Part shown: positions 22,425-34,272 of the stretch, piece after piece
How positions within the stretch are numbered: position 1 is the first letter of the stretch
Layout of the letters: every line of letters starts with the position of its first letter
NCBI GenBank assembly: GCA_945860165.1
Contig: CAMAPL010000003.1
Span: 122,495-186,494 of the forward strand
Source of the DNA: Rhizobium sp. Q54
Lineage (GTDB): Bacteria; Pseudomonadota; Alphaproteobacteria; Micropepsales; Micropepsaceae
Length of the DNA: 64,000 nucleotides
Reading direction: 5' to 3'
Notes under the pieces: model-generated
Seen by the model: only the letters and a program-made list of their open reading frames with translations
What the model was told of the DNA's origin: nothing
The model's database searches: none
Made by a program: the position numbers and the translations under genes

Positions 22425-24258
22425 ATGAAACGCGTTCTTCCCCTTATGTCCCTGTTTTTGGCAATCCCGGGCCTGGCGACTGGAGCAGCGTCGGACGCGA
22501 TGTCGGTAGCCAGCGTTATTCCCCGCTGACCCAGATCACCCCCGGCAATATCGCAAAGCTGAAGGTGGTCTGGACCCATCACATGAACCCCAAATACGAT
22601 CCGTCGGCGCCGCCGTCGCCCCGAACGCCGGGTTCGGAGACCACGCCACTGGTGGTTGACGGGGTAATGTATTTCTCGACGCCCTATGCACGCGTGGTCG
22701 CGATGGACGTTGATAGCGGCAAGCAGGTCTGGTCCTACAGCCTGCCCAAAGGCGAACAGACGCCGATCCGCGGCATCGGTACTGGGCCCGCGACAGCACC
22801 CACGACGCGGCGGTCATCTTCGGCACCAGCAGGGGCCGGATCATATCCCTGTCGGCAATGACCGGCCACCCGACGGAGAAATTCGGCAACAACGGCATTC
22901 TCGAGACCAAGACGCCGGAAATCATGAACGGCTTTCCGAAGGCCGCGTACCGCTACAGCTCCGCGCCCAACATCTACAAGAACCTGATCATCATCGGTTC
23001 GGCTGTCGGTGAAGAGCCCCAGGGACCGGCCTGCGATGTCAGGGCTTGGGATGCGCGCGACGGACGCCTGGTCTGGCAGTTCCGCTCCGTCCCGCGCACG
23101 GGCGAATTGGGCAACGACACCTGGAAGAGCGACAGCTAGGCCCGGCGCTCCGGCGTCAATGTGTGGAATATCGTCACCGTCGATCCGGACCGAGGCATTG
23201 TCTACATGCCGTTCGGCGCGCCGGCCTTCGACCGCTATGGCGGCGACCGCCACGGCGCCAACCTCTTCGCCAATTCGTTGGTCGCCGCCGACGCCACCAC
23301 CGGAAAATATCTCTGGCATTTCCAACTCAATCTCCATGAGATCTGGGACTGGGACTTCAGCTCACCGCCAACGCTCTTGGAGGTGAAAAAGGATGGCAAG
23401 GCCATTCCCGCCATCGCCGCCATCACCAAGTCGGCGCTGCTGTTCATCTTGGACCGCGTCACAGGCAAGCCGATCCATGGCGTAACCGATGTGCCGGTGC
23501 CCCCCAGCCCGGTGGAAGGCGAGCAGGCCTGGCCGACACAGCCGATGCCGGCGGTCACACCACCCTTGGCGCGGTTGGATTTTTCCTTCGACGAGATCGC
23601 CACGGTGACGCCGGAACTCAATGCCTATTGCAAGGCCTGGATCGCCCGGGAAAATCTGCGGCCCAGCAAGCGCTTCGAACCCATCCCGTTCGACCGGCCG
23701 ATGATCCGCTTTCCCGGCGGTGAAGGCGGTGCGGAATGGGCAGGCGGCGGTTTTGACTCCGCGCTCGGCTATTACATCATCAGCACCAACAGCCTTGGCT
23801 ATGTGGAAAAACTGGTCAAGAACAAACAGGGCAAGTGGGGCTTCACCACCGCGCACTTCGCGGACAAGGATCAGAATCCCTGCCAGCAGCCACCCTGGGG
23901 TCACCTGACCGCCGTGGACGTGAACACCGGAAAGATCGCCTGGCGCGTCAATCTGGGCACCACCGACAAATTTCCGGAAGGCAAGCGCGATACTGGCCGG
24001 CCCAGCAATGGCGGCCCCACTCTGCCGGCATCGGGCCTGACCTTTATCGGTGGCACGGACGATGCCTGGTTCCGGGCGTTCGACAGCAAGACCGGCAAGC
24101 TACTCTGGTCGCACAAGCTCGACTTTGCCGCGATGGCGACACCGTCGACCTTCACCGGCAAAAGCGGCAAGCAGTATGTCGCGGTGATAGCGACGGGCGG
24201 GACAGCGATCTACGCCCCGCCCGGCGGCGACAGCCTGGTCGTGTTTTCCCTACCTTAA
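22425..24258 (+). pseudogene. PQQ-dependent dehydrogenase broken by two frameshifts and a nonsense codon
   Basis: The pieces form one quinoprotein. A signal peptide in frame 1 (MKRVLPLMSLFL) shifts near 22475 to GDWSSVGRDVGSQRYSPLTQ. A second shift near 22779 leads to YWARDSTHDAAVIFGTSRG. Finally, a TAG at 23137-23139 replaces an expected Trp before ARRSGVNVWN. The 3' part (from 23161) is open for 365 codons with intact blade motifs and a normal end, AVIATGGTAIYAPPGG. Apart from these three lesions, conservation is good, so inactivation is recent or partly due to sequence error. It is a more distant relative of the 14051 and 16133 quinoproteins. Confidence 0.85.
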
Positions 24259-24266
24259 ACTCGGGC

Positions 24267-26678
24267 CTAAGTCGGGGGCATCTTGAAGGGCTGGGGATCG
24301 GAGAACCGCCGGAGCACATTGGTGGTGATCCGGGCGATGTCGTTGTCGAAGCCGTTATGGTTCAGCGAACCGATATAGGCCATCGAGCCGACCGAAAAGA
24401 CCGCGCCGCCTGACTTGGTCTCGAAGAAGACGATGGAGGCGTATTGCCGGTCGTCATAGTCGGTGCGCAACTTGGCTGCCTGCTCAGCGTTGGCCCAGTG
24501 CGGAATGGGAAAGCCCTCCGACTTGGCCAGGTGCAGCGTGTGCTTGGGCGAGCCCGCCTTGAAATCCAGCCGGTCCACCTCGTCGCCCGCGGCGCCCGCG
24601 AAATGGGTACCGTAGTCACCAATGATCTCGTTCTTCACGCCTTCAAAAATGAATCGCGCGCGCGGGTTCTGCGACTCCGGCAGTACACGATAATAGCTAT
24701 TGCCCGACTGGAAGGTGGTGGCGACATACTGAAGGCCAAGGTTTCGCGCCGTCCAGCTATGGTCCCATTCCAGATTGTCGACGCCATCCAGTTCGTCGCG
24801 CCGCTCGCCTTCGAAATTCTGCGGCGTCCAGTAGGTCTCGTTCAGGCGCCGCAGTTCGACGGCGGGAATGCCGTCATTGCGCCAGGCGGTGGGATTGCGA
24901 AATCCATTGCCGCCCAGATACATCACCCGTCCGCCGCGGCCCAGATACTGTTCCATGGCCGTGAATATCTCCGGCGACTGATACTCCGGATGCTGGCCCG
25001 TCATCACCGTGCGGTAGCCGGAAAGAAGACCGATGCCATCCTTGTGCAGAAGGTCGTCGGTGATGATGTCGTAGGGCATCTTCTCATGTTCCAGCCAGTC
25101 CACGATCTGGGTGTCGGAATTTAGGATATGCAGCCAGCTCTTCAAGGTGACGGTCAACAGGGGACGCCGCCAGGACGAACGGGTGACCATCGAGCCATCG
25201 ATGTGCTGGTCATACAGGCTGCGCCCGAATTCGGGATGCTGCATCAGGAAATCGATATCGTCACCATTGAAGTGGAACGCCGGATAACGCTCCAGCTGGC
25301 AGAAGTTGCGCGTCCAGTTACTGTAGGCAAGATAGGTGGTGGTCGGCACCAGGAATGCCGTGGGCGCGGTGACGGTGCCCTTGGGCGGTGAGACGAAGAA
25401 CGGTACATAATGTTCAGACTTGCCATGCTGCAGATGCAGCGCATAGATGCCGCTGCGCAGGCCCTGCGGCACCGTATAGGTGAAGCTGGGCGTCCACTCC
25501 GCGTCCATAAGATCGTCTTCGCGAAAATACATCGCCGAGAATTCGACCGGCTGCAGGCGCCAGTCCTTGCTGGCCTTCCAGTGATAGCCTTTCAGCGCGC
25601 GCTGGGGCCAGTTGACGCTGCGCCCATGCCAGGCTTGGGCGGTGGTGTCATGCACGACAAAGTTACCGATGCCGCGCGAGAAATCCCAGAATCCGCGCAT
25701 ATCGTCGGCCACCGTGATGTCTTCGTATTTTGGTGTGCGCGCGATGCGGATCATATCAACCGCCGACAGGGCTTTTCCGGATATCCTGACCCCGTCGATG
25801 CGGCCGTTGAACAATGCGAAAGGCGCGGGCTGTCCGTTTGCCATGGTCTCGCCGCAGCCGGCGGCAAAGCGCATCGGCGTCCCGGCGGCGATGGTCCAGT
25901 CCGGCGCAAGCCTTCTGGTGCCAAAAATGTAGTGCAGCGGATCGGCGGGGTGGTCGAGCGGGAAATTGGGATCGGTCAGCAACACGTCATAGACCCGCCA
26001 TTCGCCGGTGAGCGCATCGAACGAGGCGCACAGCATGGTCCAGTGTCCCGGCTGGATGTAGCGCGAGGTGCGCAGCTTGAAGGACTTGCCGCCCCCCTGC
26101 CCGACCCACAGCGCACCTTCGCCGCGTTCATCGATGCCGATGGCCCAGCCGGTCTTGCCCGTCTGGTTCCATTGCGACGCGACAAACTGGATACCCTTGC
26201 CGGGCATGGTCGGCTTGATAAGCGCCATCACCGAAAAGCTTTGCCGGGTGCTGGCGATGGCGGACGGCGCGGTCTTGTCGAAGGTCACATAAGAGCCCGG
26301 CCAGGTCTTCTGCTCCGCGCCCTTGTAGGTGCGCGCGAAATCGGCGGCCTCGGGGTCCACCCGGAAACGGCCGGCGCCCGACAGCGTGTCGCCATTGATG
26401 ACCCGCACCAGTGAGGCCCGATAGTCGCCCGGCGCATAAGTGCTGGCGAAGAAAGTGATCTTCTCACCCGGCCGCACCGTGACCTGATCGCCATACCCGA
26501 CGATGGTTTTGTTGGACGCCGCCAGGGTCAGGGCGTGGCCCTTGTCTTCATTGGTGACGGGACGGCGGGGGCGCGCGGTCAGGCTGGTCAGCGCCTGGGC
26601 CGGAAGTCTTGCAAGCGCCGTCAGGGCGGATACCGCCGCCATCATCATCAAGGATGCGCGACGCGTAAGTTTCGACAT
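24267..26678 (-). CDS. Exported N,N-dimethylformamidase large-subunit-like protein
   Basis: This 803-residue protein starts with a twin-arginine signal (KLTRRASLMMMAA). A beta-rich segment follows, then a LamG/concanavalin-like domain at about residues 140-310. The C-terminal half (about 380-800) resembles the beta-subunit domain of N,N-dimethylformamidase: TAFLVPTTTYLAYSNW, DIITDDLLHKDG, QYLGRGGRVMYLGGNGF, and GAVFSVGSMAYIGSLNHNGFDNDIARITTNVL. The known enzyme hydrolyses DMF to dimethylamine and formate and needs a small subunit; I find none here, and the known enzyme is not exported through Tat as far as I know. The actual substrate is therefore open; other amides are possible. Confidence 0.8.
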   Translation of the reverse strand: MSKLTRRASLMMMAAVSALTALARLPAQALTSLTARPRRPVTNEDKGHALTLAASNKTIVGYGDQVTVRPGEKITFFASTYAPGDYRASLVRVINGDTLSGAGRFRVDPEAADFARTYKGAEQKTWPGSYVTFDKTAPSAIASTRQSFSVMALIKPTMPGKGIQFVASQWNQTGKTGWAIGIDERGEGALWVGQGGGKSFKLRTSRYIQPGHWTMLCASFDALTGEWRVYDVLLTDPNFPLDHPADPLHYIFGTRRLAPDWTIAAGTPMRFAAGCGETMANGQPAPFALFNGRIDGVRISGKALSAVDMIRIARTPKYEDITVADDMRGFWDFSRGIGNFVVHDTTAQAWHGRSVNWPQRALKGYHWKASKDWRLQPVEFSAMYFREDDLMDAEWTPSFTYTVPQGLRSGIYALHLQHGKSEHYVPFFVSPPKGTVTAPTAFLVPTTTYLAYSNWTRNFCQLERYPAFHFNGDDIDFLMQHPEFGRSLYDQHIDGSMVTRSSWRRPLLTVTLKSWLHILNSDTQIVDWLEHEKMPYDIITDDLLHKDGIGLLSGYRTVMTGQHPEYQSPEIFTAMEQYLGRGGRVMYLGGNGFRNPTAWRNDGIPAVELRRLNETYWTPQNFEGERRDELDGVDNLEWDHSWTARNLGLQYVATTFQSGNSYYRVLPESQNPRARFIFEGVKNEIIGDYGTHFAGAAGDEVDRLDFKAGSPKHTLHLAKSEGFPIPHWANAEQAAKLRTDYDDRQYASIVFFETKSGGAVFSVGSMAYIGSLNHNGFDNDIARITTNVLRRFSDPQPFKMPPT

Positions 26679-26842: not shown

Positions 26843-27811
26843 CTACTTCTTCGCCGCCCGCCCAGGTTTTTTGACGGGCTTGGGGTCGCTCTTCTTCGCG
26901 GGCGCCTTGGCCTTCACGACGGATTTGGATTTTGTCTTGGCCACCGCCTTGGTCTCCACCATGGCCTTTGGCGCTGCTACAGCCTTCCTGGGCCCAAGCA
27001 CAATCTTCGCTTTTGCCGGAACTACTTCCACGGCTGCTGTTTTTTCCGGCGCCTGCTCGACAGGCTTGCGCAGCGGCTTTTCAACCGTCTCCACGACAAC
27101 GCGCGGGGGCACGACACCGCCCACGACCAGCTGCAAAAGGCGCTCCGACAAGCCTTTCGGCTTGGCCACCACCCGGGTTTCACCGGACGAAACTGCTTCC
27201 AAAAAAGATTCAACCGACTCGGCAGAACGGCAAATGCTGGCCCTGGTCGCGGTGGCCACCACTGGCCCATGGATCAACGACGGGTGTTCATGGATCGCGC
27301 CCCAGAATTCCGTGTCGCTGATGAACCTGTCATCCAGCCGAAGTTCAAGGAAAAGCGGCTCGTACTTGCGCACGAGGCTCTGATTGCCATCGCGCAGGAG
27401 CATGGACAGGCGTCTGAGTTCCTCCCCCGTCGGTGGGGTGGCGATATAGTCCACCATATGGGGTTCATGCCCGGCATCGCGAAGTTCCGCGAGCACGTCA
27501 CTGGCCTCATCGCAATCAGGGTCCATATAGATTGTCAGGCCCGGCTTGGCCTGTTCCTTCACGGGCGCGGCCGGCGCTGTCTTTTCCACTCTCGGCGCAG
27601 GTGCGTCGGCCAGCACTTTCAGGTTGACGGCTTTGGGACCTTTCTTGTCCGGCTCGGTCTCGAAAGAAACCCGCTGACCTGCTTTCAGGCCCGATATGCT
27701 GGTTGCCGTGATGGAAGCAGCGGTAACAAACACATCCTTGCCCCCCTCATCCGCCGTAATAAAACCGAAGCCCTTAGCAACATTGAAGAATTTAACAGTG
27801 CCGTGTGCCAT
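26843..27811 (-). CDS. Cold-shock domain / ArsC-like domain / basic H1-like tail fusion protein
   Basis: The protein has 322 residues in three parts. Residues 1-66 are a cold-shock domain with RNP1 intact (KGFGFI) but RNP2 altered (DVFVTA, lacking the usual His and Phe). Residues 91-207 match the ArsC thioredoxin-like fold along its length: LTIYMDPDC with C100 at the catalytic position, TPPTGEELRRL, R148 and C194-R195. The third arsenate-binding arginine is Gly (G182), and the anion loop after C100 is acidic. Residues 208-322 form a Lys/Ala/Pro/Val-rich tail like histone H1 repeats. The ATG at 27811 starts a canonical MAHGTVKFF; the upstream extension is not conserved in style. It probably binds nucleic acid under redox or stress control (inference). 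Confidence 0.85.
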   Translation of the reverse strand: MAHGTVKFFNVAKGFGFITADEGGKDVFVTAASITATSISGLKAGQRVSFETEPDKKGPKAVNLKVLADAPAPRVEKTAPAAPVKEQAKPGLTIYMDPDCDEASDVLAELRDAGHEPHMVDYIATPPTGEELRRLSMLLRDGNQSLVRKYEPLFLELRLDDRFISDTEFWGAIHEHPSLIHGPVVATATRASICRSAESVESFLEAVSSGETRVVAKPKGLSERLLQLVVGGVVPPRVVVETVEKPLRKPVEQAPEKTAAVEVVPAKAKIVLGPRKAVAAPKAMVETKAVAKTKSKSVVKAKAPAKKSDPKPVKKPGRAAKK

Positions 27812-27989
27812 GAACTTCCTGATTGACGGCCAGCCCTCTTTCGAGCCGCTGACGTGACCTGCTGTGGTGGGTTGTTCCTGCTGCTTTAATTCGTGCAGGA
27901 CCGCAGCGCAAGCGACCAGTTCTGAAGCGGGAATTACAGCCCTGTGACTGATCGAACCTGATGCCTGACCTGTACGCACTTACGTCAAT

Positions 27990-28702: not shown

Positions 28703-28772
28703 TCCACCGCGCGCGGCTTCAAAATTGCCTGCTACACTATCGCTGGAGAAGCGCAGCGCGATCAACAAACTC

Positions 28773-30272
28773 ATGACCAGAATCTTCCTCGCCGGAATCT
28801 TTCACGAGACCCACAGCTTCACGGATGATCGTACTGGCATCGCGGATTTCCTCATCCATCGCGGTCAGGCCTTGCTGGACCGGATTGGTGACGGCTCGCA
28901 GATCGATGGCTTCCTTACCACTGCCGCGCGGGAAGGCTGGGAGGTCGTGGCCGCCGCCAACTATCTGTGCGGTGCATCAGGCATGGTCGAACACGCCGTC
29001 TTCGAAAGTTTCTGGGACGACATAAAGCCCGTCCTGGTCACCGCGCTGGCTGATGGCCTGGACGGGATTTTTCTGTCGCTGCATGGCGCGATGGTGACGA
29101 CCGAGCTGGAAGATCCTGAAGGCGAGTTGCTCGCGCGCATCCGTGCCCTGCCGGGCGCCGCCCAATTGCCGATATTCGGGGTGTTCGATCTCCATGCCAC
29201 GCTGACGCAAAAAATGTGCGGTCTGTCCGACGGCCTGGTCTGCTATCGCGAATGCCCCCATGACGACACCTATGAAAGCGCCGTGCGCGCGACGGAGCTG
29301 CTGGCGCGGTGCCTCCGGACAGGTATACGCCCCCGCCAGCACGTGCTGGTGACACCCATTGTTTGGCCACCCACCGGCACCGGAACCCGGGACGGCGCCA
29401 TGCATGCTCTGGAAGCCGCGGCCCGCCGGATAGAACGCGAAATTCCGGGCGTCCTGGCGGTGAATGTGTCGGCTGGCTACGCCTATGCCGATGTCCATGA
29501 TGCCGGTGTTGCCTTCAGCATCGTGACGGAAGGCGACGCGGATGCGGCCAAGGCGGGGTTGCGCGTGCTGGCGAAGATCGCCTGGGAACTGCGCCAAGAG
29601 GGGATTCCCCCAGAGCATGACCTGGATCAGATTGTGCGCGATTTCATACCGCGCGGCGACGGCCCGGTGCTGCTGGTTGAACCCGCCGACAATATCGGCG
29701 GCGGTGGGCCGGGCGACTGCACCGATGTGATGCGCGCCCTGCTGAAGCATGATGTGGACGGCGCCGGCGTGGTGATGGCCGACCCCGAAGCGGTTGCGGC
29801 GCTCCAGGCCATCCCGGTCGGCGGACGCAAAACACTGAGCATTGGCGGCAAGGGCAGCCGGCTGGACCTTGGGCCGGTCACCCTGGATGTCGAACTTGTA
29901 TCCCGCAGCAATGGCCGTTTTGAACTGGAAGACCTGCAAAGCCAGATCGTGGTGCTGGGACACAGCATCAATATGGGTCCTTGCGCCGTTGTGCGGCATC
30001 GGGGCCTGACCATTTTGCTGACCAGCAAGCGGCTGGCACCGTTCGACCTGGGGCAATGGCGCAGCCAGGGCATCGATCCGGAAAAGCTGACCATGATCGG
30101 GGTCAAGGCCGCGGTGGGGCACCGCCGGGCCTATGAAAAAATCGCCTCTGCCAGTTTCACCGTCAGAACAAACGGCCCCTGCACGTCGGACCTCGGCCGC
30201 CTGCCCTACAAGCGGATCCGGCGGCCGGTATTTCCGCTCGACCAGATGCCCCTCGACAATATGGAAGGATAG
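28773..30272 (+). CDS. M81-family metallopeptidase (MlrC-like)
   Basis: MlrC-type proteins are zinc peptidases first described in microcystin degradation; relatives handle small linear or modified peptides. This 499-residue protein opens with IFLAGIFHETHSF and has the family blocks FLSLHGAMVT, FGVFDLHATLTQKM, CYRECPHDDTYE, DNIGGGGPGD and the C-terminal domain with VLGHSINMGPCAVVRHRG. The ATG at 28773 puts the conserved MTRIFLAG at the start; an upstream in-frame start would add 16 unlike residues. A peptide-binding protein gene follows 3 bases after its stop, so the two probably serve the same peptide substrate. Confidence 0.9.
   Translation: MTRIFLAGIFHETHSFTDDRTGIADFLIHRGQALLDRIGDGSQIDGFLTTAAREGWEVVAAANYLCGASGMVEHAVFESFWDDIKPVLVTALADGLDGIFLSLHGAMVTTELEDPEGELLARIRALPGAAQLPIFGVFDLHATLTQKMCGLSDGLVCYRECPHDDTYESAVRATELLARCLRTGIRPRQHVLVTPIVWPPTGTGTRDGAMHALEAAARRIEREIPGVLAVNVSAGYAYADVHDAGVAFSIVTEGDADAAKAGLRVLAKIAWELRQEGIPPEHDLDQIVRDFIPRGDGPVLLVEPADNIGGGGPGDCTDVMRALLKHDVDGAGVVMADPEAVAALQAIPVGGRKTLSIGGKGSRLDLGPVTLDVELVSRSNGRFELEDLQSQIVVLGHSINMGPCAVVRHRGLTILLTSKRLAPFDLGQWRSQGIDPEKLTMIGVKAAVGHRRAYEKIASASFTVRTNGPCTSDLGRLPYKRIRRPVFPLDQMPLDNMEG
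30263..30269 (+). promoter_or_regulatory. Strong ribosome binding site in front of a CTG start codon
   Basis: GGAAGGA lies inside the last codons of the M81 gene, 6 bases ahead of the CTG at 30276. It decides the start of the following gene, which has no ATG, GTG or TTG before its signal peptide. Confidence 0.7.
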
Positions 30273-30275
30273 ACT

Positions 30276-31853
30276 CTGGATCGCCGCGCGATATTAAGAG
30301 CCGCGGCAGCCGCGCCCCTCCTCGGCGTTCCGCGACAGGCATGGGCGCAAAATGGCCATGGCACCCTCAACGCCATGATGGCGTCCGAGCCGGCGACCCT
30401 GAACTATCCCTTATACAATTTCCGCCTGACGCAGCAGATCTGCAGCAACATAAACGAGTCCCTGCTGCTGCTGGACTGGACGTTCAAGCCGCGCCCGAAC
30501 CTGGCGAGGGGCTTCGAAATATCGCCTGACGGCCGGACATATACATTTCATCTGCAGCCCGGCGTGTTCTGGCATGACGGCGCACCTTTCACGTCGCGCG
30601 ACGTCGTGTTCAGCAGTGACGTCATGCTGCGCCAGCTCAACACCCGCAGCCGGGCGGCCCTCAGCCATTGCGAAAGAATCCGGGCGTTGGACTCTTTGAC
30701 CGTGGAATACCGGCTGAAAGAGCCGTTCAACGCGTTTTTGCTGTCGTTCATGGCCTCGTCCAGCCCCATGATGCCGGCGCATATATATGAAGGCACCGAC
30801 TTTCGAACCAACGTCTTCAACAACAAGCCGGTCGGCACCGGCCCGTTCAAGTTCAAGCAATGGTCGCGGGGGCAGTTCATCCATCTGGTGCGCAATGAAC
30901 GCTACTGGCGCCCTAACCGGCCGTTCCTCGATGAGATTTATTTCCGGATTGTGCCTGCGGCGGAGCAACGGATGGTGGCCCTGGAATCCGGCGCGATCGA
31001 CATCGGGTTTGGCGATGCCGTCGATACCGTGGTGATGTCGCGGCTGCGCATCCAGCCCGGCCTCAAGCACATTACAAACGCCTATGACGGCGATGGCGAA
31101 ATCGGACTGATGGAAATCAACCAGCGCCGCGCGCCCTTTCATGACCGGCGCTTCCGGGCCGCTATCATGCACGCTATCAACCGGGACTTCCTAGTCCAGG
31201 GCCTGAATTTTGGCTCCGGCAAGGTCGCCCATGGGCCCATTCCCTCGGCCGCGCCCTATTATGATGAAAAGGCCATCGTCAAATATCCGTTCGACCTGGC
31301 CCGCGCCCGCGCCCTGCTGGACGAGATGGGATTGAAACCCAAAGCCGGCGGTGTGCGGGCAAAGCTCGGCCTGATGATGCTGCCCGACGGCGGCGGCGCC
31401 TGGACCCGCTTCGCGCATTATACCAAGCAGGCCTTGGGCGAAGTGGGACTTGAGGTCGAACTGCAGTCCACCGACTGGGCCACCTTTACCCGGCGCAACG
31501 GCAACTGGGATTTCGATCTGTGCTGGATCAGCTATGGCATGTTCGGCGATCCCGCCATCGGCATGTCGCGCCTCTTCATGGCGTCCAATATCCGCAAGGG
31601 CGTTCCCTCGACCAACGTTCAAGGTTACGTCAATCCGGAAATAGACACCCTGTTCGCCCAGGCTTCGGCGGCCATCGATCATGGCGTGGCGCAGCGTCAT
31701 TATAGCCGCATCCAGACCATACTGACCCGCGATGTCGCGATGCTTTGGATGCTGGAGACCAAACCGCCGGTATTTCACAGCCAGCGGTTTCGCAACGTCA
31801 TCACCGGCCCAAATGGCCCCAGCGATGGCTTTGGCGAGGCATCTCTGGCCTGA
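30276..31853 (+). CDS. ABC-type peptide/solute-binding protein (family 5), CTG start
   Basis: This is a periplasmic extracytoplasmic binding protein of the DppA/OppA (SBP family 5) type. From the CTG at 30276 the frame gives a twin-arginine signal, LDRRAILRAAAAAPLLG, ending near AWAQ. The mature part begins GTLNAMMASEPATLNYP and shows the family pattern LARGFEISPDGRTYTFHLQPGVFWHDG written across residues 70-100, VGTGPFKFKQW and RHYSRIQTIL. The first ATG (30375) would cut off the whole signal, so CTG is preferred. No permease or ATPase gene is nearby, so it is an orphan binding protein, probably working with the adjacent peptidase. Confidence 0.85.
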   Translation: MDRRAILRAAAAAPLLGVPRQAWAQNGHGTLNAMMASEPATLNYPLYNFRLTQQICSNINESLLLLDWTFKPRPNLARGFEISPDGRTYTFHLQPGVFWHDGAPFTSRDVVFSSDVMLRQLNTRSRAALSHCERIRALDSLTVEYRLKEPFNAFLLSFMASSSPMMPAHIYEGTDFRTNVFNNKPVGTGPFKFKQWSRGQFIHLVRNERYWRPNRPFLDEIYFRIVPAAEQRMVALESGAIDIGFGDAVDTVVMSRLRIQPGLKHITNAYDGDGEIGLMEINQRRAPFHDRRFRAAIMHAINRDFLVQGLNFGSGKVAHGPIPSAAPYYDEKAIVKYPFDLARARALLDEMGLKPKAGGVRAKLGLMMLPDGGGAWTRFAHYTKQALGEVGLEVELQSTDWATFTRRNGNWDFDLCWISYGMFGDPAIGMSRLFMASNIRKGVPSTNVQGYVNPEIDTLFAQASAAIDHGVAQRHYSRIQTILTRDVAMLWMLETKPPVFHSQRFRNVITGPNGPSDGFGEASLA

Positions 31854-31935
31854 CAATAGGGCAAAGCCGCGCTTTCGCTCAGGTTGGCAGTGTGCGAGAT
31901 TGCGGGCGGGAAACATCAATCAGCCGCGGGGAAAC

Positions 31936-34272
31936 ATGCGGATTTTGTCGTTTATCGTGCTCGTGATTACGGGGCTTGGGCTGGCGCTGCCGGGACTATA
32001 TCTCGCAGTGCTGGGCGGCACATTCTATTACATAGTCACCGGCCTGCTGGTGCTGCTCAGCGCCTGGCTGGTTCTGCGACGCGACCGTGCCGGACCCCAA
32101 CTCTTGTGGCTGGTGCTTTTGGGAACGGCGGTGTGGTCGCTGTGGGAAGTGGGCCTCGACGGCTGGGCGCTGATGCCGCGCCTGATTTATCTGGCGATAC
32201 TGGCCCTGGTGGTGTGGTTGCTGTCGCGGATCGGCGGCGCGCAGCGCTCCACCTTGAAGCCCGTGATGGCGATGCTTGTCGTGATCTTCGCGGTCACGGC
32301 CACCGGCGCAGCCGTCTGGGCGGCGATCCAGCTGCCCGCTGCGCCTGCGCCAGCCCAACTGGCCACGGTGAAAGCCGCGGGCGACGGCGAATGGACCCAT
32401 TACGGTAAGACGCAAGCCGGCACGCGCTATTCCAGGCTGGCTCAGATCACCCCGGCCAATGCCGGCAATCTGGAACAGGCCTGGGTCTATCGTTCGGGCG
32501 TGCGTGAGCGGGGCAAACTGTCAGCGGACCTGCTGCAGGCCACGCCCCTGATGGTGGACGGCACGCTCTATGGTTGCACCGGCTACAATGCTGTGTTCGC
32601 GCTGGATCCGGTGACCGGCAAGGAAATCTGGCGGCATGATCCGAAGATCAATCCCGCCCTTGGCAATCGCGGCGTTTGCCGCGGCGTGTCTTTCTTCCGC
32701 GCGCCGGATACGGCGGGCGAATGCCCGACCCGGCTGCTGCTCGGCACCGCCGACAACCGGCTGATCGCGCTGGACGCCAAAACGGGGCGTCCCTGCACCA
32801 GCTTCGGCACCAATGGCGCCGCCGATCTGCGTCATGGTATGGGCGATTTCCTGCCGGGCTGGAGCAATCCCACCTCGCCGCCCACCATCGTGCGCGGAAC
32901 GGCGGTCATCGGCGCCTTTGTCGTCGACAACCAGTCAGTCGATGTGCCGCCGGGCGTCATTCGCGGCTATGACGCGGTAACCGGCCAGCAGAAATGGGCG
33001 TTCGATCCGGGCCGCCCCGACGATCAGACGCCTGCCGCGCCAGGCAAAAACTATACGCCATCCACGCCCAACAGCTGGACGGTGTTCAGCGGCGACGAAG
33101 CACTGGGCCTGGTCTATGTGCCGATGGGCAATGGCAGCCCGGATTACTATGGCGCCCATCGCACCCCCGAAACCGACCGCTTCACCAGCGCGGTTGTCGC
33201 GCTGGATTCGCAGACCGGCGCGGTGCGCTGGACCTTCCAGGCCATTCATCACGATCTGTGGGACTATGATCTTGGCGCCCAGCCGGTGCTGGTGAATTTC
33301 CCCACGGCGAATGGCAGCGTGCCAGCGCTGATCCTGCCCACCAAGACGGGACAGATATTCGTGCTCGACCGGCGCAGCGGCAAGCCGTTGACGCGGGTGG
33401 AAGAACGTCCCGTCCCGGCGTCCGATATTCCAGGCGAGCGGTCGGCCCCAACCCAGCCCTTTTCCACCGAATTTCCGGATTTTTCCGGCAAGAGACTGAC
33501 CGAAGCCGACATGTGGGGCATGACGCCTTTTGATCAGCTTTATTGCCGCATCCTGTTCCGCACCGCGCGCTATCAGGGGATGTACACACCGCTGAGAGAA
33601 GGCGTGTCGATCCGCACGCCGGGCGAGCTGGGCGGAATCGACTGGGGCAGCGTATCGGTGGACGAAGATCGCGGCATCATGATCGTCAATTCTAACCTGA
33701 TGGCCGACTGGGACGAACTGGTCCCCCGCGCCCAGGCCGAAAAGGAAAACATCTTTCCGCGGGCAACGCCGCGCGCTCTCGCCAATCCCTACAAGGGTTC
33801 AAACGCCGGAGCGATGGACGGCACGCCCTACGCCATCCGTTTCAAAGGTTTCATTACCCCCCATTTGGGCATTCCCTGCCAGCGGCCGCCTTACGGCTAT
33901 CTCACCGCGATTGAACTGAAGAGCCGCAAGGTGTTGTGGCAACACCCGTTCGGCGATGCGTCTAACAGCGGGCCGTTCAATAAAGCACTGGGCCTGCCCT
34001 TTACCCTGGGCGCGCCCAATATCGGGGGCTCCATCGTCACCGGTGGCGGCGTGATCTTTATCGGCGCCAGCCAGGACGGGCACTTCCGGGCGATTGACGA
34101 AGCCAGCGGCAGGGAATTGTGGAAGGTGAAACTTCCCGCCGGCGGCCATGCCACGCCCATGACCTATCTGGGCAAGGATGGACGGCAATACGTGCTGATT
34201 GCGGCCGGCGGCAGCGGCGGGTTCCGCACCGGCTCCAGCGACAGTTTCGTGGCCTACAGGCTCAAGCAATAG
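31936..34272 (+). CDS. gcd: Membrane-bound PQQ-dependent glucose dehydrogenase
   Basis: This enzyme oxidises glucose (or other aldoses) to the lactone on the outer face of the inner membrane and passes electrons to ubiquinone. The first ~135 residues hold about five transmembrane helices, then the eight-bladed PQQ domain begins at EWTHYGKTQAGTRYSRLAQI. Further blocks are GNRGVCRGVSFF, HHDLWDYDLGAQPVL, LPTKTGQIFVLDRR, GGIDWGSVSVDEDRGIMIVN and the C-terminal GHATPMTYLGKDGRQYVLIAAGG. The 778-residue length fits the family. The ATG at 31936 begins the first helix; the longer frame upstream overlaps the binding-protein gene. A downstream hydrolase follows closely. Confidence 0.93.
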   Translation: MRILSFIVLVITGLGLALPGLYLAVLGGTFYYIVTGLLVLLSAWLVLRRDRAGPQLLWLVLLGTAVWSLWEVGLDGWALMPRLIYLAILALVVWLLSRIGGAQRSTLKPVMAMLVVIFAVTATGAAVWAAIQLPAAPAPAQLATVKAAGDGEWTHYGKTQAGTRYSRLAQITPANAGNLEQAWVYRSGVRERGKLSADLLQATPLMVDGTLYGCTGYNAVFALDPVTGKEIWRHDPKINPALGNRGVCRGVSFFRAPDTAGECPTRLLLGTADNRLIALDAKTGRPCTSFGTNGAADLRHGMGDFLPGWSNPTSPPTIVRGTAVIGAFVVDNQSVDVPPGVIRGYDAVTGQQKWAFDPGRPDDQTPAAPGKNYTPSTPNSWTVFSGDEALGLVYVPMGNGSPDYYGAHRTPETDRFTSAVVALDSQTGAVRWTFQAIHHDLWDYDLGAQPVLVNFPTANGSVPALILPTKTGQIFVLDRRSGKPLTRVEERPVPASDIPGERSAPTQPFSTEFPDFSGKRLTEADMWGMTPFDQLYCRILFRTARYQGMYTPLREGVSIRTPGELGGIDWGSVSVDEDRGIMIVNSNLMADWDELVPRAQAEKENIFPRATPRALANPYKGSNAGAMDGTPYAIRFKGFITPHLGIPCQRPPYGYLTAIELKSRKVLWQHPFGDASNSGPFNKALGLPFTLGAPNIGGSIVTGGGVIFIGASQDGHFRAIDEASGRELWKVKLPAGGHATPMTYLGKDGRQYVLIAAGGSGGFRTGSSDSFVAYRLKQ

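Follow-up and report, generated by a model that had tools for sequence, protein, structure and literature searches.

A cold-shock protein carrying an ArsC-like domain and a basic tail in one lineage of the Micropepsales

What could a relative of arsenate reductase be doing inside a cold-shock protein? The question is raised by a gene in a stretch of 64,000 nucleotides (hereafter, the window) from contig CAMAPL010000003.1, positions 122,495 to 186,494, of assembly GCA_945860165.1, named Rhizobium sp. Q54 and placed by GTDB in the Micropepsaceae. The gene lies at 26843..27811 on the minus strand, as do all features given within it below, and encodes 322 residues plus a stop: a cold-shock domain (CSD), an ArsC-like domain and a basic tail. 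Its ATG is at 27811 and its stop ends at 26843, exactly where the first-pass annotation of this DNA had placed the gene, which left the strand unmentioned. We describe the protein as a variant among the cold-shock proteins that makes use of a probable pseudo-ArsC domain, interesting but not categorically new.

The Pfam CSD family matched residues 3-65 (E 2.9e-18, 65.9 bits, cut-off 27) and Pfam ArsC (PF03960) matched residues 95-203 (E 4.7e-8, above the curated cut-off). In a search that scored 7997 candidates, 465 homologues were found at E ≤ 1e-3. Counts out of 121 given below refer to the query and the best 120 of these 465, a set skewed to close relatives, and counts out of 23 refer to copies in individual genomes, which are more evenly sampled and less uniform. 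All 60 homologues that were aligned matched both the CSD and the ArsC family at E ≤ 0.01. A 378-residue open reading frame (ORF) with a GTG start was rejected as an upstream extension, the start methionine being invariant in the 60-sequence alignment. The predicted structure has two confident domains, with block values of the predicted local distance difference test (pLDDT) of about 82 and 91; the linker between them (residues 67-90, 27542..27613) has pLDDT below 50 at residues 70-89, and the tail is mostly below 50 as well. The three-module fusion proposed at first pass is thus real and conserved, with both Pfam families over their cut-offs and both domains in all 60 aligned homologues. The proposal had been open to failure if no homologue carried the same fusion or if the ArsC similarity vanished in a profile search; such homologues were found, and the similarity persisted. 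Our searches of open-access literature turned up no paper devoted to the architecture, and some members bear the JGI annotation 'cold shock CspA family protein/arsenate reductase-like glutaredoxin family protein'.

A chance fusion, a frameshift or an assembly artefact is easily imagined at such a gene, as csp and arsC often adjoin in the order (29/75 arsC loci). However, both domains lie in one frame in 23 separate genomes and in the majority of 120 listed database clusters, 14 of the 23 carriers also have a separate csp-arsC pair, and the fused domains make up a distinct clade. This explanation is refuted on these four counts, and we give it next to no probability.

The ArsC-like domain (residues 91-209, 27185..27541, net charge -12) matches the ArsC family in fold as well as in the Pfam search. 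Its nearest sequence relatives are the glutaredoxin-coupled ArsC proteins (TIGR00014, PF03960), with which it also shares R148 and C194; unlike them, it has an incomplete catalytic set and an acidic body and is fused to other parts. The catalytic set of ArsC, namely Cys12, Arg60, Arg94 and Arg107, is jointly present in 73 of 74 free ArsC proteins of the order, and in none of the 121 fusions or 23 genome copies. At the place of the catalytic cysteine (C100, 27512..27514) the family is not conserved, with Cys in 13/121, Ser in 70/121 and Asp in 22/121; the free ArsC proteins of the order have the cysteine in 74/74. Where free ArsC has the arginine of its LINRP motif (73/74), the fusions have lost it throughout (121/121) and carry glycine in 120/121 (G182, 27266..27268). 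Nor do the 121 homologues retain the His-Asn of the HNP motif. The window copy has neither the His-Asn before the loop nor the Arg after it; it holds three of the four catalytic residues (C100, R148 and R195) and lacks the LINRP arginine. Every residue singled out at first pass is present, namely C100, R148, the C194-R195 pair, Gly182 in place of the ArsC arginine and the acidic residues following C100. Arsenate reduction, already doubted there, is unlikely given the incomplete set in 121/121 and a TIGR00014 score of 70.2 bits, below the equivalog cut-off of 106.05.

Other positions of the domain have become newly fixed in the fusions: F154, L159-D-D-R-F163, W170 and E175 are each found in 121/121, with E175 replaced by Gln in two of the 23 genome copies. 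The LDDRF stretch (27323..27337) is a fusion-specific signature that is also present in 23/23 genome copies, and it belongs, with W170, to the 16 domain positions identical across all 121 homologues. The ratio of nonsynonymous to synonymous substitution rates (dN/dS) came to 0.046-0.201 in the ArsC-like domain, 0-0.146 in the CSD and 0.16-0.69 in the tail over ten close pairs (those of 171 with at least 70% identity, some of which have high dS). These pairs came from 19 of 22 loci; G069, G043 and G072 were missed by the start pattern, and the contig-end copy G060 was omitted. In a tree built from 23 fused domains together with 74 free ArsC sequences, the two groups separate on one branch with support of 100/100. 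Of the 75 free arsC genes, L109 was omitted from the tree and the residue comparisons. YffB was tried as a root and rejected, as its branch length of about 10 gave no usable root, and the tree was left unrooted. Having lost catalytic residues while apparently being kept by selection, the ArsC-like domain has the appearance of a pseudoenzyme.

The pocket might instead have been remodelled to bind an oxyanion or glutathione, in which case the domain would sense this ligand and tune the CSD. R148 is retained in 118/121 homologues, and position 195 is Arg in 86/121 or His in 30/121, as such a sensor might require. We nevertheless consider it quite unlikely, given the universal loss of the LINRP arginine, the lack of the HNP His-Asn and the replacement of R148 by Lys in 6/23 genome copies.

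The cysteines bear on the thiol switch suggested at first pass, which likened the protein to Spx. C194 (27230..27232) is present in 119/121 homologues and 22/23 genome copies, but it is equally common in the ordinary ArsC of the order (71/74) and is therefore no mark of a switch. Only one cysteine occurs in the whole protein in 71/121 homologues, no CXXC was found in the loop in 121 homologues or 23 genome copies, and the ArsC-like domain of G072 has no cysteine. A switch of the Spx type at C100 is thus unsupported as a family trait, given Cys100 in 13/121, the many one-Cys proteins and the missing CXXC. A nucleic-acid binder in which a disulfide between a loop cysteine and C194 gates DNA or RNA binding as in Spx could draw on the window copy, which has both C100 and C194, and on the 14/23 genome copies with a loop cysteine, six of them with two. 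The loop cysteine, however, wanders among positions 96, 100, 103 and 104, and together with the counts above this makes the switch very doubtful. The six copies with two loop cysteines (G033, G036, G074, G058, G073 and G077), aligned to positions 96 and 103, are unlike the window copy, and their sequences could point to a thiol or redox role specific to a subclade.

In the wider Spx/MgsR group, CXXC is not known to be required of every member. The features that set Spx itself apart are CXXC, Gly52 and an RPI motif (PMC4180751). The fusions differ from Spx/MgsR proteins in having no CXXC and no RPI motif; at the place of RPI the window copy has GPV, the glycine being the near-invariant Gly182. 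An Spx-like factor without redox sensing, whose pseudo-ArsC domain would bind the C-terminal domain of the RNA polymerase alpha subunit (alpha-CTD) and so place the CSD and the tail on nascent RNA or on promoter DNA, is unlikely in our estimate. Besides the missing motifs, the sequence is nearer ArsC (PDB profile E 3e-23 to 3e-18) than Spx (2e-5 and weaker), and the fold is common to enzymes and hence no sign of binding.

The CSD (residues 1-66, 27614..27811) agrees in fold with Csp structures. As stated at first pass, the first ribonucleoprotein motif (RNP1) is intact and the second (RNP2) is altered. RNP1 (KGFGFI, K13-I18, 27758..27775) has K13-F17 in 121/121 and I18 in 119/121. In RNP2 (VFVTA, V27-A31, 27719..27733), F28 is present in 121/121 and the histidine is replaced, position 30 being Pro in 116/121, Thr in 4/121 (the window copy among them) and Ala in 1/121. 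The free csp genes of the order that were caught by a pattern near arsC genes have the RNP2 histidine in 36/36 copies. The residue that follows the histidine position is small in the fusions, and it is likewise Ala or Val in the order's free csp. Cold-shock domain proteins bind RNA or single-stranded DNA (ssDNA), with the RNP1 and RNP2 aromatics stacking against the bases, and some of them are induced by cold. In the fusions, F15, F17 and F28 are retained in 121/121. Nucleic-acid binding, proposed at first pass, would therefore be expected on the strength of the CSD. Compared with CspA/CspE-type proteins (PF00313), the fusion has the same CSD fold, intact RNP1 and RNP2 phenylalanine; it differs in length (322 residues vs about 70), in the RNP2 histidine, mostly changed to Pro, and in its two added parts. 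The NCBIfam model of the retron Se72 effector, a CSD protein, also matches residues 4-65 at 54 bits against a cut-off of 82, which is taken as CSD similarity only.

The tail (residues 210-322, 26846..27184) is rich in Lys, Ala and Pro and has a net charge of +19 (28 K/R vs 9 D/E), with a short predicted helix at residues 223-229. Across 120 tails the composition is 22% Ala, 22% Lys and 14% Pro. Its description as histone-H1-like held in part: the tail has the Lys/Ala/Pro-rich, disordered composition by which such sequences are recognized, and its pLDDT is low, but no Pfam family, histone-like ones included, matched it at E ≤ 1, composition-biased tails being poorly suited to such models. In composition it resembles Hc1 and AlgP, bacterial histone-H1-like proteins rich in Lys, Ala and Pro; here, unlike in those proteins, the tail is an appendage. 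A near-identical database copy (P0004, 314 residues) is eight residues shorter than P0002 where the tail begins, so tail length varies even between very close sequences. Body and tail are oppositely charged throughout the family: the net charge of the ArsC-like body is negative in 121/121 (median -8), and that of the tail is positive in all 120 homologues whose tail has 70 residues or more (median +19). These opposite charges support, without showing, a putative contact between the body and either the tail or a basic partner.

We put at about an even chance the reading that the fusion is an RNA or ssDNA chaperone, in which the pseudo-ArsC domain would dock a partner or mask the tail without redox chemistry. 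The CSD would bind RNA or ssDNA through its retained RNP aromatics, the lysine-rich tail would add general nucleic-acid affinity, and the acidic pseudo-ArsC body would moderate the tail in cis or hold a protein partner. Several points weigh against this. Docking or masking is read from charge and conservation alone, and the loss of the RNP2 histidine may weaken nucleic-acid binding. The loop cysteine of 14/23 genome copies may leave redox roles possible in part of the family, and three of the four catalytic residues in the window copy may leave some chemistry possible there. The charge comparison between the free ArsC of the order (mean net charge +0.46, range -6 to +8) and the 23 fused domains (mean -6.2, range -12 to -1) counts related sequences as independent. 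A more specific version, which we regard as possible but unlikely, is a lineage-born, self-masking RNA chaperone resembling Y-box proteins, whose dead ArsC, now an acidic docking module, would hold the basic tail until a partner, for instance RNA polymerase, binds and frees it. The eukaryotic Y-box protein YB-1 is of a different lineage and is not known to have an ArsC-fold body between its parts.

In the genomes sampled, the fusion is restricted to a single lineage. It was found in 23 of 96 genomes of the order, all within the window's genus (23/69), whereas the six other genera, with 27 genomes, have none. Of these copies, 22 cover 307 or more of the 317 profile positions, and the copy in G060 is cut by a contig end. 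No full-length fusion was found outside the window's genus among 385 genomes of the class, and a search of 398 genomes of the phylum at E ≤ 1e-45 found it in the window's own genome only; both searches scored up to five candidates per genome. A scan of named contigs gave three fusion relatives and 12 loci with a match to the CSD part only. Where a full-length GlnD is 75% or more identical to that of the window genome, 17 of 19 genomes have the fusion (the exceptions are G082 and G018); where it is below 75%, none does. The other six carriers have a partial GlnD (G036 76%, G060 86%, G071 80%, G043 72%) or no GlnD match (G058, G077), and two genomes without the fusion, G053 and G034, show partial GlnD matches of at least 75%. 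A single gain followed by vertical descent fits this distribution. A relative in the database bears the name Rhizomicrobium sp. (order Micropepsales), so the carrier lineage is probably Rhizomicrobium.

Free csp and arsC genes often lie close together in the order. For the neighbour count cited above, two partial matches were dropped from the 77 to free arsC, leaving 75, and a free csp was present within about 3 kb at 29 of these loci, upstream on the opposite strand in 20 of the 29. Within 1.5 kb, a csp was found at 27/75 arsC loci of the order vs 0/30 of the best-scoring arsC loci of the class. Many of the pairs lie in one block, glnD - SOD-like (Cu/Zn superoxide dismutase-like) - csp - arsC - GreA/B-like - uvrB, in which glnD and uvrB were named by their sequences and not by a family search; because this block is shared, the pairs are not independent events. 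The window genome has its own pair at locus L188 (C4), with arsC at 308-652 on the minus strand and csp at 1115-1318 on the plus strand. Around 20 copies of the fusion, only one other csp was found in 252,889 bases. A full-length free arsC over the family cut-off is kept in 19/23 carriers, so the fusion is an addition and no replacement for arsenate reductase. The fusion may plausibly have arisen from a csp and an arsC lying side by side; the tree, being unrooted, does not bear on descent from csp-linked arsC.

Beside the fusion, no recurrent neighbour family was found in 20 loci and the window, although the longest-ORF method used could miss neighbours and, at the position of the fusion, called an ORF on the wrong strand in 5/21 loci (L088, L093, L095, L096 and L103). 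Ahead of the ATG, a TCAGGA (27817..27822, minus strand) is a possible ribosome-binding site, read by eye and seen in 13/19 upstream stretches. No Rfam family matched at its gathering score within the window. Promoter and terminator scans (1 vs 0.5 in shuffles and 4 vs 2.5, respectively) were not used as evidence. The flanking genes have no evident link to the fusion. They include a gene for a DMFase-beta-like protein (24267-26678, minus) and, on the plus strand, an M81 (MlrC-like) peptidase-like gene (28725-30272), a peptide-type solute-binding protein-like gene (30375-31853) and an intact pyrroloquinoline quinone (PQQ) dehydrogenase-like gene (31732-34272). A further PQQ-dependent dehydrogenase-like gene at 22565-24258 (plus) is split over three frames (22565-22861, 22858-23139 and 23161-24258), which reflects either a disrupted gene or a sequence error.

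The fusion appears to be a clear natural example in which an enzyme domain loses its chemistry and stays under selection in a nucleic-acid-binding protein. The free pair, the fusion and the remodelled pocket coexist in living genomes, so that the rise of a pseudoenzyme could be traced stepwise. If the docking or masking model is true, cold-shock proteins would have gained a regulated middle domain, and if the self-masking, Y-box-like version is true, transcription would be linked to RNA chaperoning.
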